The notes beneath the pieces were generated by a model. That model had not been told where the DNA came from, did no database searches, and saw nothing but the letters and a program-made list of their open reading frames with translations. Shown in pieces: positions 27,914 through 37,030 of a DNA stretch of 47,695 nt; positions within the stretch are counted from its first letter, which is position 1; the number at the start of each line of letters is the position of its first letter. A program made the translations under genes and the position numbers. Source of the DNA: Candidatus Nomurabacteria bacterium GW2011_GWB1_43_19. GTDB lineage: Bacteria; Patescibacteriota; Minisyncoccia; Phycocordibacterales; UBA9973. The stretch covers positions 1 through 47,695 of the forward strand of contig LCGB01000002.1 in assembly GCA_000999465.1 (NCBI GenBank), read 5' to 3'.

Positions 27914-30682
27914 ATGGAAGGAACCTTCTTTAAGGAGATGCCCAAGTTTGAGAGCCCCGAAGAGGAGCTTAATTATTTGCGCGCTCATATGAAAATGCGC
28001 GAAGAACAACTCGTCGGTATGGGACACATAGAACACGCGCAAGAAAACGCTGCCCGGGATGTGATAGGCGAGTATAAAGATATTCCGGCGGAACAGATGC
28101 TTCACCCTGACAATATTATCGGCCAAAAAGAAACCGAAGGAATTGTCCTTAAACTTAAACCCGAACAGCACGATGATGTGATGGAGGAACTCCTGGGTAT
28201 TGTTCTTACTAAAGGAATTCGCAATGCGCTTTCTATTGTAAAGACCATGAGCAATCCGCACATTGACGATGATTTTCACCGAGTTCTTATCCAATATTTA
28301 AAGACCGGACAGGCCTTGCTTGATTTCAAGGAGGACTCATCCACTTATAAAGCTCTACATATGACCCTTTTTGAAATAACTTTACCACCACCAGAGAATG
28401 AAGCGGATAAATCAAAAAACTTTAAGGAATTTATCGGCGCGATGGAGCAATTTTATGCCGGGATGCAATCCATCGGAGAGGGCCGGTATAACGAAAAGGA
28501 AAATTATTTTACCTTGGAAGTGGCGCTTAGCAACCAAAATGACGAAGTTGTTGTTTATGCCGCGATTCCGAACAAACATATCGCGCTTTTTGAAAAACAA
28601 ATTCTGGCTTTTTATCATAATGCAAAAATCCACGAAATGACAGATGACTACAATGTTTTTAATGAGACCGGTGACTCGGTTGGTGCTTATGCTTCCTTTA
28701 CCGAACGTGCGGTTATGCCGATTAAAACTTATGACAGCATTGAGCACGATCCAATGAATCCGATATTGAATGTTTTTTCCAAACTTCAAACTATCGGCGA
28801 AGGTGCAGCGATTCAGTTTGTGATAGCGCCGGCCGGAGACAAATTTATAAACGAATTTCATATGATTTTGGATGATGTGAAGGACGGCATTTCAGTCAAG
28901 CACGCGGCGGATAATTTTTACAAATTCAACAAGGCGTTTATGAAAGCGGGCAAAGACCTGCTTTTTGGGCACAAAGAAAAAGGAGAAGAAGAAAAAAAAG
29001 AAAAATATATGAAAGGCAGACGTGCGGTAGACGAAGGAGCGGTGGAGAAAATAGGGAATAAAATAAAAAGTACCATAATGAAAGCAAATATCCGCGTAAT
29101 TGCCTCGGCTCAAACCAAAATCCGCGCTGAAGCTGTTTTGAGAGAAATAGAATCTTCTTTTAATCAGTTTTCCGAAACTGCCAGCAACTCTTTTGTTTTT
29201 GAGCAGGCCTCCGGAAGCGAACTTAAAAAGCTTTTTCATGATTTTTCTTACCGGACATTTTCACCCGACAGAATTTTACCGATGAATTTAAAAGAACTTT
29301 CCTCGGTATTTCATTTCCCGGTCGGCATCGGTAGTCAGCCGCAACTCAAAGAAGCCAAAGCTGGTATCGCGCCGGCGCCGATAGAGATGGGGACTGAAGG
29401 AATAGTTCTCGGAATAAACAGTTACCGAGGCAGAGATACGGAAATCCATCTGGCTCGCGAAGACCGCATGAGGCATTTTTATACCATCGGCCAGACCGGC
29501 ACCGGCAAGACCAATATAATGCTTAATATGATTACTCAGGATATAAGAAACGGAGACGGATGCTGCTACATTGACCCGCACGGCACCGATATTCAAACTA
29601 TTTTGTCGCGCATACCGAAAGAACGCATTGACGATGTTATTTATTTTGACCCTGCCTATACCGCCCGCCCGATGGGACTGAACATGCTGGAATACGACCC
29701 GAAATATCCGGAACAGAAAACCTTCGTAGTCAATGAAATGATGGGAATTTTCAACAAGCTTTTTGACATGAAAATCGGCGGTGGGGCAATGTTTGAGCAG
29801 TATTTCCGCAATAGCGCCTTTTTAGTCATGGAAGATCCGGAATCCGGCTCAACCCTGCTTGAAATTACCCGTGTCTTGGCGGACAAAGAATTTCGCGACT
29901 TAAAGCTCTCCCGCTGTAAAAATCCGATTATCAAGCAATTCTGGGTTTCTGCCGAGCAGACGACCGGCGACCAGTTGCTGGCCAACTTTGTGCCTTATAT
30001 TTCTTCAAAATTTGACAACTTTATTTCCAACGATATCATGCGTCCGGTGGTGCTCCAACAAAATTCCGTTTTTAATTTCAGAAAAATTATGGATGAGAAA
30101 AAAATTCTCCTGGTGAACCTCTCTAAAGGCCGACTCGGCGACATTAATGCTAACCTTATCGGTCTGGTTTTGGTGGGTAAAATCCAGATGGCCGCGCTCT
30201 CCCGGGTGGATATGTTCGGCAAACCGATGAACGATTTTTACCTTTATATTGACGAGTTCCAGAATGTCACTACTGACTCCATCGCTTCTATTTTATCCGA
30301 AGCCAGAAAATACCGGCTATCTCTTAATATCGCGCACCAGTACATTACCCAACTGGAAGAAAGTATCAAGAACGCAGTTTTCGGCAACGTCGGTTCAATG
30401 GCCGTCTTCCGCGTCGGCACCGAAGACGCGACATTCCTGGAACCGAGATTCAAGCCGCAATTTACCGCCCACGATATAACCAAATTGGATAATTACAACG
30501 CCTATGTCAGTATGTTGGTCCACGGCCAGCCGGTCAAGCCGTTTAACTTAAAAACCCTCGCTCCCGAGAAAGGCAATCTGAGTATTGTGGACAGTTTGAA
30601 AGAACTCTCTTATGTGAAATACGGCCGCGACCGCGCCGAAGTGGAAGCGGAAATTATGGCGAGATATCAGTCAATGGAATAA
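27914..30682 (+). CDS. Conjugation-type ATPase (TraG/VirD4/VirB4-like)
   Basis: 922-residue AAA-type motor. The C-terminal half has Walker A GQTGTGKTN (about 523-531), DPHG next to it, and Walker B YLYIDEFQN (about 776-784), followed by the sensor-like NIAHQYITQLE. This matches DNA-pumping ATPases of type IV secretion and conjugation. The N-terminal half (1-480) is unlike known domains; it has a tandem alpha/beta layout with a Lys-rich linker near 355-375. There are no obvious transmembrane helices at the N-terminus. No other secretion genes are nearby. A surface or DNA-uptake role is inferred only. Confidence 0.75.
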   Translation: MEGTFFKEMPKFESPEEELNYLRAHMKMREEQLVGMGHIEHAQENAARDVIGEYKDIPAEQMLHPDNIIGQKETEGIVLKLKPEQHDDVMEELLGIVLTKGIRNALSIVKTMSNPHIDDDFHRVLIQYLKTGQALLDFKEDSSTYKALHMTLFEITLPPPENEADKSKNFKEFIGAMEQFYAGMQSIGEGRYNEKENYFTLEVALSNQNDEVVVYAAIPNKHIALFEKQILAFYHNAKIHEMTDDYNVFNETGDSVGAYASFTERAVMPIKTYDSIEHDPMNPILNVFSKLQTIGEGAAIQFVIAPAGDKFINEFHMILDDVKDGISVKHAADNFYKFNKAFMKAGKDLLFGHKEKGEEEKKEKYMKGRRAVDEGAVEKIGNKIKSTIMKANIRVIASAQTKIRAEAVLREIESSFNQFSETASNSFVFEQASGSELKKLFHDFSYRTFSPDRILPMNLKELSSVFHFPVGIGSQPQLKEAKAGIAPAPIEMGTEGIVLGINSYRGRDTEIHLAREDRMRHFYTIGQTGTGKTNIMLNMITQDIRNGDGCCYIDPHGTDIQTILSRIPKERIDDVIYFDPAYTARPMGLNMLEYDPKYPEQKTFVVNEMMGIFNKLFDMKIGGGAMFEQYFRNSAFLVMEDPESGSTLLEITRVLADKEFRDLKLSRCKNPIIKQFWVSAEQTTGDQLLANFVPYISSKFDNFISNDIMRPVVLQQNSVFNFRKIMDEKKILLVNLSKGRLGDINANLIGLVLVGKIQMAALSRVDMFGKPMNDFYLYIDEFQNVTTDSIASILSEARKYRLSLNIAHQYITQLEESIKNAVFGNVGSMAVFRVGTEDATFLEPRFKPQFTAHDITKLDNYNAYVSMLVHGQPVKPFNLKTLAPEKGNLSIVDSLKELSYVKYGRDRAEVEAEIMARYQSME

Positions 30683-30769: not shown

Positions 30770-31852
30770 ATGAAAGGACCACTTACCCATTTTCCGGTTA
30801 CCCAGACCAAAGTCCCAAACCTGGACAAAAAGTTTGACCTGAACGATCCCAAGGACCGAAAGGAGTATTTCGGAGCCAAGGCGGGCGAGGAAATAAAAAA
30901 ACTGAAGAAATATTTTGCCAGCAATACTTTTGTGGCCTATCTTTTAGGGAAAAAGAATTCCGGCAAAGGAACTTATACCAAGCTGATGGCGGAAATCTTC
31001 GGCGCGGATAAAATCGGACACATTTCTGTCGGCGACTTGGTTCGTGAAACGCACAAAATTATTGAAAATCCGGAAGAAAGAAAAAAGATTGTCGGCTACT
31101 TGGAGAAAAATTATCGCGGATATATTTCCATCGATGACGCGATTGACGCCTTGGTCGGCAAAAACCAGAAAGTTCTTCTGCCAACAGAATTCATCCTGGC
31201 TCTCATTAAGCGGGAAATTGACAAGTTGGGCCGTAAGGCGGTATTTCTGGACGGATTTCCCCGCGACTTGGACCAGATACAATACTCGCTGTATTTCAGA
31301 GACCTGATAGATTACCGTTCGGATCCGGACATATTCGTTGCCATTAACATTCCCGAGTCGGCGCTTGACGAGCGCATGCGCAACCGCGTCGTCTGTCCCA
31401 AGTGCCAGGCGCCAAGGAATTTGACAACTTTTCCGACCAAGGAAGCGGGCTATGACGAGGAAACAAAGCGATTTTTCTTAAAATGCGACAACCCTGCATG
31501 CGAAGGCGCGAGAATGGTTGGAAAAGAAGGGGACAGCGCCGGTATTGAGAGCATCCGCGAGCGGCTGGAACTGGACGATAAATTAATCAAAAAAGTAATG
31601 TCGCTCCACGGGATTCCAAAAATCCTGCTCCGGAACGCCATCCCGGCCGATAGCATCAAGGATGGTGTCGTGGATGACTATGAGGTAACTCCCAAATACG
31701 TATTTAAATACGATGAAAAAACGGACAAGGTTACCATTGGAGAAGAGCCCTGGATTGTCAAAGATGACGAAGGCAACGACTCCTTCAGCTTACTCGCTCC
31801 GCCGGTGGTGGTGGGGCTCTTAAAACAGCTGGTAAAAGTCCTAGAACTTTAA
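30770..31852 (+). CDS. Long adenylate kinase-like nucleoside monophosphate kinase
   Basis: 360-residue paralogue of adenylate kinase. Walker A is GKKNSGKGT (60-68), DGFPRD (161-166) binds NMP, and the LID carries a zinc finger made by Cys209, Cys212, Cys239 and Cys244. It has about 50 extra residues before the core and about 75 after the LID (DYEVTPKYVFKYDEK...), so it is far longer than the usual 215. The substrate is unknown. It is separate from adk at 26466 and has its own promoter. Confidence 0.78.
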   Translation: MKGPLTHFPVTQTKVPNLDKKFDLNDPKDRKEYFGAKAGEEIKKLKKYFASNTFVAYLLGKKNSGKGTYTKLMAEIFGADKIGHISVGDLVRETHKIIENPEERKKIVGYLEKNYRGYISIDDAIDALVGKNQKVLLPTEFILALIKREIDKLGRKAVFLDGFPRDLDQIQYSLYFRDLIDYRSDPDIFVAINIPESALDERMRNRVVCPKCQAPRNLTTFPTKEAGYDEETKRFFLKCDNPACEGARMVGKEGDSAGIESIRERLELDDKLIKKVMSLHGIPKILLRNAIPADSIKDGVVDDYEVTPKYVFKYDEKTDKVTIGEEPWIVKDDEGNDSFSLLAPPVVVGLLKQLVKVLEL

Positions 31853-31886
31853 ATCATTCCAAAACAAAAAAGGGAATTCGTCTATC

Positions 31887-31914
31887 TTGCCAAAAAAACA
31901 GGAAGGCGTATACT
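31887..31914 (+). promoter_or_regulatory. Promoter of the structured RNA
   Basis: TTGCCA (31887-31892), 16 bp, TATACT (31909-31914). Predicted +1 is 31921, the first base of the closing stem. Confidence 0.6.
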
Positions 31915-31920
31915 CAAGGT

Positions 31921-32075
31921 AGGGTTATTTCCGATTATTACCTAGAACATTAATTTACGGGAGAGTCGATTGCGTTTGGCCTTGGCTTCTCGCATCTCTC
32001 ACCCACCTAGCTATAAGCTATGGTAATATATCAGAAATAGTCCTAAGAAGAACTCCGCATTTGGCGGATTTTTTC
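31921..32075 (+). ncRNA. ssrS: Structured non-coding RNA, 6S-like candidate
   Basis: A promoter-terminator unit of about 155 nt without an ORF. 31921-31942 pairs with 32022-32044 in a stem of about 20 bp with one bulge, one mismatch and G-U pairs. A second stem (GGGAGAG at 31959-31965, TGCG at 31971-31974, with CGCA at 31991-31994 and CTCTC at 31996-32000) makes a terminal hairpin. The strand between, on the 3' side, holds the small hairpin TAGCT-ATA-AGCTA. Closing stem, large central bubble with a small 3'-side hairpin and terminal stem is the 6S RNA layout that traps RNA polymerase. TCCGC/GCGGA (32054-32068) plus six T is the terminator. The symbol is provisional. Confidence 0.5.
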
Positions 32076-32084
32076 TTGGGAATA

Positions 32085-32093
32085 TGCTAAAAT
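32085..32093 (+). promoter_or_regulatory. Leaderless promoter of the 129-aa membrane protein gene
   Basis: TGC-TAAAAT, hexamer ending 6 nt before the ATG at 32100. Confidence 0.5.
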
Positions 32094-32099
32094 ATTAAT

Positions 32100-32489
32100 A
32101 TGGATAAGAAAGGGTTTTTGAAACATCTAGTATTCCTGATGTTTTTTATTTTTATAGCGGATTTGCTGGCCAGAAACTTTTATTGGTATTCTTTGATTTG
32201 GTATTTTGACATGATTATGCACTTCCTGAGCGGGCTATGGGTCGGACTGTTCTTTTTTTATGTTCTTTCCGTAAAAAGCCCTTTAGCACCATCATTTAAA
32301 TCATTTTTGAAAATTATTTTGCTTGTTTTGATAATCGGAATTTCATATGAAATTTTTGAGTTTATCATGAACGTTATTTCTGTCACTCCTTTTGACCCGG
32401 TAGACACCACCTCCGACCTATTTTTTGATATGCTCGGCGCCGCCGTTTCAATTTTCTATTTTATGAAAGTAGTTCGCCTTAAAAAATAA
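32100..32489 (+). CDS. Small integral membrane protein, DUF2238/VanZ-like
   Basis: 129 residues with four hydrophobic segments, at about 8-25, 38-60, 72-92 and 105-122. The pattern DMIMHFLSGLWVGL, GISYEIFEF and DPVDTTSDLFFDMLGA, with conserved Asp, His and Glu at membrane edges, resembles DUF2238-type proteins. Function unknown. The start follows a -10 at 6 nt. Confidence 0.6.
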   Translation: MDKKGFLKHLVFLMFFIFIADLLARNFYWYSLIWYFDMIMHFLSGLWVGLFFFYVLSVKSPLAPSFKSFLKIILLVLIIGISYEIFEFIMNVISVTPFDPVDTTSDLFFDMLGAAVSIFYFMKVVRLKK

Positions 32490-32508: not shown

Positions 32509-33876
32509 ATGAAAAAGCAGGCCAAAATCACATTTTACGGAGGAACGGGGTCGGTCACCGGCTCCAATTTTCTTTTGGAAATTGACGGAGAGAGAATTCT
32601 GGTGGACTGCGGGCTGACTCAGGGATTTAAACTGGCCGACGACGTTAACTGGGATCCGTTCCCCTATGACCCCAAGGCCGTAGATATTCTTTTTGTGACG
32701 CATGCGCATGTGGATCACTTGGGCAGGATTCCGAAATTAATCAAAGAAGGATTTCGCGGGAAAATTTACTCCACGCAGCCGACCAAGGAACTTGCTTTGC
32801 CGATGCTGGAAGATACCGCGAGTATTTTAAGCAAGAATACCGACTTAGGACTAGATGAAATTTATACCGACGAAAACCTCAAGTTGACACTTTCGCTTTG
32901 GCGCGGGTTTGCTTATCATGAGAATATAAAAATTACCGACCATTTGCAGGCCTGTTTTTTAAATGCCGGGCATATTCTGGGCTCGGCCATGATTGAGTTC
33001 ATTTTTAACGGCAAGAAAATTCTTTTTACCGGGGACTTGGGCAACAGCCCTTCGCCGCTTCTTCCGGACACAGAAAAAGTTACCGATGTGGATTATTTGA
33101 TAGTGGAATCCGTCTATGGCGACAGAAATCACGAATCCAGGCCCGACCGCCGCCGATTCCTGGAAAAGACCATTGAAGATAATTACAAAAGAAAAGGAAC
33201 GCTGGTTATTCCCACCTTCTCCCTGGAGCGCTCACAGGAGCTTCTCTTTGAGCTTAATACGTTGGTGGAAAATAACCGCATTCCGATGATGCCCATTTTT
33301 TTTGATTCTCCTTTAGCCATCCGCTTGTCGGAAATTTTCAAGCACAACAAGAGTTATTTGAACGAAATGGCGCAAAAGACGATGTCGGACAGCGACCTGT
33401 TCCTGTTTGACTTTCCCGGCCTGCACAACACCTTAAAGGCCGAAGAATCAAAAATGATTTTGGATGTCCCGAATCCGAAAATTGTCATTGCTGGGTCTGG
33501 AATGTCCACCGGTGGGCGCGTCGTGCATCATGAGAAGAATTATCTGCCGGACCCGAACAACACCCTCCTTTTGACCGGTTACCAGTCGGTTGGCACTCCG
33601 GGGCGGCTGATCCGGGAGGGATTGAAAAAAATCCGAATAACGGGAGAGGACGTGGATGTGCGGGCGCACATTGTGACAATTTCCGGATATTCCGGACACA
33701 AGGACTCGGATGGCCTGCTTTCCTTCGTGGAAGACATGCAGGACACGGTGAAAAAGGTCTTTGTAGTTATGGGTGAACCGAAATCATCAATGTTTTTAGT
33801 TCAAAAGTTGAGAGACAATTTGGGAATTGAGGCCTATGCGCCGGAGCAGGGGAGCAGCGTAGTGCTAGATTGCTAA
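32509..33876 (+). CDS. MBL-fold beta-CASP ribonuclease-like hydrolase
   Basis: 455 residues. Zinc motif HAHVDH (64-69) opens the metallo-beta-lactamase core, NAGHILGSAMIEF follows and FTGDLGNS supplies further ligands. The beta-CASP insert has PTFSLERSQELLFEL, and the C-terminal part has GSGMSTGGRVVHH and SGYSGHKDSDG of the RNA-specificity (RMMBL) domain. The family processes or degrades RNA (CPSF-73, RNase J relatives). This is the shorter form without the RNase J C-terminal domain. Cytoplasmic. Confidence 0.87.
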   Translation: MKKQAKITFYGGTGSVTGSNFLLEIDGERILVDCGLTQGFKLADDVNWDPFPYDPKAVDILFVTHAHVDHLGRIPKLIKEGFRGKIYSTQPTKELALPMLEDTASILSKNTDLGLDEIYTDENLKLTLSLWRGFAYHENIKITDHLQACFLNAGHILGSAMIEFIFNGKKILFTGDLGNSPSPLLPDTEKVTDVDYLIVESVYGDRNHESRPDRRRFLEKTIEDNYKRKGTLVIPTFSLERSQELLFELNTLVENNRIPMMPIFFDSPLAIRLSEIFKHNKSYLNEMAQKTMSDSDLFLFDFPGLHNTLKAEESKMILDVPNPKIVIAGSGMSTGGRVVHHEKNYLPDPNNTLLLTGYQSVGTPGRLIREGLKKIRITGEDVDVRAHIVTISGYSGHKDSDGLLSFVEDMQDTVKKVFVVMGEPKSSMFLVQKLRDNLGIEAYAPEQGSSVVLDC

Positions 33877-36627: not shown

Positions 36628-37030
36628 GGGGATGCAAGGCATAGACAGTCGGCCTTTTGTCATTGATGCATGCCGAGAATGAACGCAATCTCGTGAAACT
36701 TCGTTCAATAGCTTAATTGCAAAATTAGCTTCCAAGGCGTTTGCGAAAATCTCTCCATACTTCGGTATGAATGACTTCGCTTACGCTTCAATTTCGGCTT
36801 CGGCCTAAGTTGATGTCTCTTTTATTGACTTCCGATATATAAGTAGAGGCATAATATTATCGGGATAGGAGAAAGAATGTCCTGGCTTTCTTTCGAAACA
36901 AAGGGGCTCGATTAAAAAATATTTGGCTCGTTTCTTAATTTTTTAATTTAAACAAAACAAGCGCGCTACGCATGTAGACTTCTTTGCAAAAACCTTCTGC
37001 ACACGAGTTCAATTCTCGTCATCTCCACCA
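36628..37030 (+). ncRNA. ssrA: Transfer-messenger RNA
   Basis: Ribosome rescue RNA, about 403 nt. GGGGATG (36628-36634) pairs with CATCTCC (37020-37026) with the G3-U70 pair needed for alanylation, followed by discriminator A and encoded CCA. The T arm is ACGAG-TTCAATT-CTCGT. The tag frame appears to start with GCA at 36719 and end with TAA at 36806-36808: 29 codons, beginning Ala-Lys-Leu-Ala and ending Ser-Ala-Ser-Ala. It is long, and the end differs from the common LAA. The resume codon was inferred from the only long frame. Confidence 0.93.

Follow-up and report, generated by a model that had tools for sequence, protein, structure and literature searches.

Promoter, predicted transcript and terminator of the intergenic locus

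The stretch of Candidatus Nomurabacteria DNA analysed here (the window, 47,695 nucleotides) contains a gap of 247 bases between two open reading frames (31853-32099) in which a promoter-like sequence, a set of potential stems and a terminator follow one another on the forward strand, raising the question of whether the gap contains a gene for a structured RNA and, if so, to which family that RNA belongs. The product is very probably a single-copy homologue of 6S RNA (SsrS) of Candidatus Nomurabacteria, with its own sigma70-type promoter and an intrinsic terminator. The elements that delimit it are:

31887..31892, + strand: -35 element TTGCCA (TTG in 34/34 and TTGC in 32/34 full-length genus copies)
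31909..31914, + strand: -10 element TATACT, 16 bases past the -35 element (spacer length and TA.A.T in 34/34 copies)
31921..32075, + strand: 6S RNA homologue, predicted transcript (covariance models R1, R2 and R3, described below, match 31918-32050)
32045..32077, + strand: intrinsic terminator, with a stem at 32054-32068 and then TTTTTTCTT

The arrangement TTGCCA-16-TATACT, proposed in a sequence-only reading of this DNA, was found at these positions, and the same -35 element, spacer and -10 element recur in all 34 full-length copies from the genus; most of the spacer columns between the two elements are just 32-62% identical. The predicted start of transcription is A31921, which lies 6 bases past the -10 element and is invariant in the 34 genus copies; the predicted closing stem begins at this likely start, in agreement with the earlier placement of +1 on the first base of a long closing stem. 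The 3' end is likewise a predicted position, and a run of at least four T residues comes after the closing stem in 34/34 genus copies. The length of 155 nt that had been given for the gap fits the predicted transcript (31921-32075), but the gap between the flanking open reading frames is 247 bases.

Conservation and covariation

A DNA similarity search recovered the RNA stretch from 36 of 60 genomes, comprising its own genome and 35/35 others of the genus, and from none of the 24 genomes representing other families of the order; because DNA similarity is absent beyond the genus, covariance models were needed to go further. The named genome collection yielded 64 stretches with the genus pattern, mostly labelled Candidatus Nomurabacteria or Paceibacterota, and the pattern was absent from the viral contigs searched. 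One contig labelled Burkholderiales (L234) carries the genus 6S RNA and its neighbours, and is probably a mislabelled metagenome bin.

Two alignments were used to assess whether changes in the arms compensate each other. A1 is a plain MAFFT alignment of the 34 full-length genus copies, from which two copies cut by contig ends (G006 and G032) were omitted, a terminator-only match of 28 bases in G027 also being disregarded. On A1, with a structure drawn up from the same sequences, 94.1% of cells pair, versus 87.5% in shuffles and 34-43% in slid versions, and 16/42 pairs have changes on both sides (117 cells, versus 43 in shuffles). A3, which superseded an earlier alignment (A2, in which 7/105 rows were antisense), takes in 92 loci at one row each, including a single genus locus, from among the 115 genomes with a match to R1; it shows both-side changes in 37/40 pairs (803 cells, versus 233 in shuffles), counts that lean towards the model's structure, to which A3 was fitted. 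The rod, in which a central bubble separates the closing stem from the apical stem, and its 3'-side hairpin are thus backed by covariation far above the shuffled and slid controls. Covariation in relatives, which the sequence-only reading had named as a check, is present in the genus and order alignments alike, the paired arms being conserved with compensatory changes.

Relationship to the Rfam 6S family

The other check named in that reading, a search with the Rfam 6S model RF00013, gave no match: applied to the window and to the locus, the model left the window copy undetected, below the curated cut-off of 46.4 bits that serves as the detection threshold, and homology was shown through intermediates instead. 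Because the copy falls below this cut-off, we class it among the 6S homologues and not as an RF00013 match. Two sub-threshold chance matches to other Rfam families (isrK and rsmX) aligned to the terminator region and were discarded.

Three covariance models, for which E-values are rough, served as intermediates: R1 was built from the genus, R2 from the order, and R3 from 28 Rfam-detected copies only. In aligning the Rfam-detected copies, MAFFT alone put the GGG block out of register at some points, so the sequences of R3 were aligned with the structure of R2 (alignment A5), and the structure of R3 is therefore not independent of R2. From the Rfam side, RF00013 gave 12 weak matches at E<=1 among 297 genomes drawn across the order, none of them over the cut-off; nine share place and strand with R1 matches, and two more, in G158 and G266, fall where R2 has a match, so that 11/12 coincide with R1 or R2, the twelfth (G202) lying in a genome without an R2 match. 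Among 379 genomes drawn across the phylum, RF00013 gave 30 matches at E<=0.1, four of them over the cut-off; 20/30 have an R2 match at their own place and strand, and when 28 of the 30 loci were searched alone with R2 at the laxer threshold of E<=0.1, 28/28 were matched at the same place and strand. In the opposite direction, R3 recovers the window RNA with 79.5 bits, its sole match in 47.7 kb at E<=1, and also 33/33 of the other genus copies given to it. Since RF00013, R1 and R2 pick the same loci and R3 finds the window RNA, the RNA is a true 6S RNA homologue, a relationship that the chain of models in both directions establishes without a direct Rfam match. The window copy also has, around its apical stem, the GGGA...CCCACCU block with unpaired A's beside the GGG:CCC helix that is common to the RF00013 consensus. 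The 6S-like layout proposed earlier is accordingly borne out by the covarying arms and by homology via intermediates in both directions; the window RNA is a divergent form of 6S RNA, and the standard RNA library misses 6S RNA in this group.

The lineage models extend the family well beyond the genus. R1 has a match in 115/297 order genomes (E<=0.1), and R2, at E<=0.01, in 229/297 order genomes, representing 136/165 genera, and in 111/379 phylum genomes; at the same threshold R2 is without a match in 68/297 and 268/379, respectively. The R1 and R2 searches were run with stricter filters, which lose weak matches. By comparison, the Rfam cut-off is reached in 0/297 order genomes versus 229/297 with a lineage-trained model. 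There is mostly one model match per genome; six order genomes (G072, G083, G095, G116, G166 and G218) have two R2 matches each, the additional one being a second copy or antisense.

Other stable RNAs were considered for the locus and for the genome. Signal recognition particle (SRP) RNA was rejected as the identity of the locus, with no match at E<=10 on 31853-32120, and none was found in the genome by the bacterial SRP models RF00169 and RF01854, which a divergent SRP RNA has probably escaped. RNase P RNA was likewise rejected, as it lies elsewhere in the genome, at 99.2 bits, just below its cut-off. A tmRNA gene at 36628-37030 has an Rfam match of 117 bits and is not reported by ARAGORN.

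Predicted fold and comparison with known RNAs

The strand beginning at A31921 folds at -51.4 kcal/mol, versus -33.2 kcal/mol for shuffles (z -4.5; 0/200 shuffles as stable), into one closing stem, a bubble, a small hairpin on the 3' side, an apical stem and a terminator hairpin. The central bubble, 3'-side hairpin, terminal stem and intrinsic terminator of the sequence-only reading are thus all present in a predicted fold far more stable than shuffles. The parts are:

31921..31942, + strand: closing stem, 5' arm (predicted fold and covariation)
31943..31958, + strand: central bubble, 5' side, unpaired in the minimum free energy fold
31959..32004, + strand: apical stem-loop with a CUUG loop (covariation and RF00013 alignments)
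32005..32021, + strand: central bubble, 3' side, with a small hairpin (stem of 32008-32011 with 32017-32020)
32022..32044, + strand: closing stem, 3' arm (G32022-U32024 pair with 31940-31942 or with A32005-C32007)

The 5' bubble side contains a UAGAACAC-like block that is nearly invariant across the genus. The GGG:CCC helix of the apical stem is present in nearly all copies, with compensatory changes above it, and the GGGAG...CACCC block of 31959..32004, with its opposed unpaired A's, is shared with RF00013. A fold of about the same quality is predicted for the reverse strand, and the covariance models match the antisense of some copies too, at much lower scores; the reverse strand was rejected as the RNA strand, since the plus strand is favoured by the promoter and the terminator as well as by score.

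Like the 6S RNAs of Patescibacteria that exceed the RF00013 cut-off (L182-L185), the window RNA has a closing stem, a central bubble, a 3'-side hairpin and an apical stem, with the GGGA...CCCACCU block and its opposed unpaired A's, and as a rule one copy per genome. It differs in being compact, with about 133 positions without the terminator versus 187 model positions in RF00013, in having a shorter, AU-rich closing stem, and in scoring below Rfam detection, unlike L182-L185. In the RF00013 consensus the closing stem has a GUUCG...CGGCA block, which several Rfam-detected copies from the Candidate Phyla Radiation (CPR) also show; this block is absent from the window copy and from the genus alignment.

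Among known 6S RNAs, the 6S-1 RNA of Bacillus subtilis resembles the window RNA in having a small hairpin in the 3' bubble side of the free RNA, as described in PMC8876501; the hairpin of the window RNA can be extended once the closing stem gives up some of its bases, whereas that paper reports no such extension for 6S-1. The 6S RNA of Escherichia coli, according to the same paper (PMC8876501), acquires an extended 3'-bubble hairpin once its downstream helix opens, as predicted for the window RNA, but this is a hairpin of 9 bp arising from a 3' bubble side that is essentially unstructured in the free state, whereas the window RNA has a short hairpin already in its predicted free state.

A 6S-like rod is shared also with Ms1 RNA of Actinobacteria, and the window RNA might on this basis be an Ms1-like RNA that binds RNA polymerase core without a sigma factor and stores the enzyme. 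Ms1 binds RNA polymerase, as the core enzyme, and PMC9130861 describes it as structurally related to 6S RNA, so that structure alone cannot separate the two; the window RNA is set beside it here by description. This identity is very improbable, since the window RNA shares a primary-sequence block and a covariance profile with the Rfam 6S family and Ms1 is described from Actinobacteria (PMC9130861). Assignment to the 6S family is preferred on these grounds.

Gene neighbourhood

The genes that flank the 6S RNA homologue are:

30770..31852, + strand: adenylate-kinase-like protein, upstream neighbour, outside the RNA gene (Pfam PF00406; near the RNA in only 4/64 named loci)
32100..32489, + strand: DUF2238-like membrane protein, downstream neighbour (PF09997 at 24.2 bits, just below cut-off; in at least 53/64 named loci)
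32509..33876, + strand: beta-CASP metallo-hydrolase, second downstream neighbour (in at least 60/64 named loci)

Counts over the 64 loci with the genus pattern are lower bounds, as some loci end before the neighbour is visible. Upstream genes vary among these loci; a TraG/TrwB-like coupling ATPase (27914-30682) lies upstream on the same strand in 43/64. The beta-CASP hydrolase (32509-33876) reaches 390 bits with the NCBIfam model of type VII CRISPR Cas14 and 292 bits with aCPSF1, falling short of the cut-off in each case, and is a stand-alone relative of Cas14 and aCPSF1.

The constancy of the downstream pair, found in 53/64 and 60/64 named loci, together with the end of the terminator about 20 bases upstream of the next open reading frame, would fit a structured leader in which attenuation at the terminator controls the DUF2238-like and beta-CASP genes. 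Such a leader is slightly less probable still than an Ms1-like RNA: the RNA occurs in 136/165 genera of the order and matches 6S loci, and the predicted fold offers no obvious alternative pairing of the RNA with the terminator stem. Read-through into the downstream genes could nevertheless occur alongside a 6S function. A chance arrangement of promoter, hairpin and terminator without function, to which one might be led by a promoter scan that by itself performs at chance level (3 found versus 2.3 expected), is refuted by conservation in 35/35 other genus genomes with the promoter in 34/34 copies, and by compensatory changes that greatly exceed those in the shuffled and slid controls, leaving it hardly any probability.

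Proposed mechanism of the 6S RNA homologue

By mimicking an open promoter, 6S RNAs bind RNA polymerase that carries the housekeeping sigma factor; they template short product RNAs, and release follows when the product RNAs open the downstream helix (PMC8876501). We infer that the window RNA likewise binds RNA polymerase and supports synthesis of product RNA. The genome has two open reading frames with sigma70 region 2, of 419 and 168 amino acids, of which the former is of RpoD size and is the likely partner of the window RNA. By analogy, the 5' arm of the closing stem (31921..31942) would be the template strand: when nucleotides return, the polymerase would make a short product RNA by copying from the 5' bubble side into the closing stem, and this copying would open the stem and free the enzyme. 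As the stem opens, G32022-U32024 would quit their 5' partner and join A32005-C32007, lengthening the 3'-side hairpin.

Three observations bear on this last step. In the fold of the whole RNA, which represents the closed form, G32022-U32024 are paired with 31940-31942, and when bases 32004-32026 are folded alone an extended hairpin forms in which they pair with A32005-C32007. The pairs of the extended hairpin are kept in 95.5% of cells across the order, with covariation; for example, columns 253 and 284 of the order alignment are seen as C-G, U-A, A-U and G-C. In the genus copy L028, the closing stem, its 3' arm and the hairpin side read ACU/AGU/ACU instead of ACC/GGU/ACC, a triple change. Together, the fold of the hairpin alone, the order-wide covariation and the triple change suggest, within the limits of structure prediction, an E. 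coli-like switch upon release of the window RNA.

Tentatively, and with the balance of probability somewhat against so specific a proposal, the Patescibacteria of this order may possess a compact class of 6S RNA with a closing stem reduced to a stack of two AU-rich helices and with release driven by the switch of G32022-U32024; such an RNA would be a minimal mimic of the open promoter, moulded by the reduction of the genome and by an episymbiotic life of feast and famine.

Implications for Patescibacteria

The open-access literature yielded no paper describing 6S RNA in the CPR, in agreement with the earlier remark that it is not well described there; subscription papers were outside this scope, and earlier surveys (2005 and 2014) may mention it. 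Of two open-access papers, one that names Patescibacteria applies the name '6S RNA' to SRP RNA, and another that names both TM7 and 6S RNA mentions them apart. Annotations may already exist for some 6S RNAs of the CPR, because 4/379 phylum genomes pass the Rfam cut-off.

6S RNA has been described as nearly universal among bacteria. If the identification made here is true, a global brake on RNA polymerase has been retained in bacteria with genomes of approximately 0.6 Mb, where the Rfam cut-off has missed it, and the lineage models would offer a direct route to annotating 6S RNA in the order.
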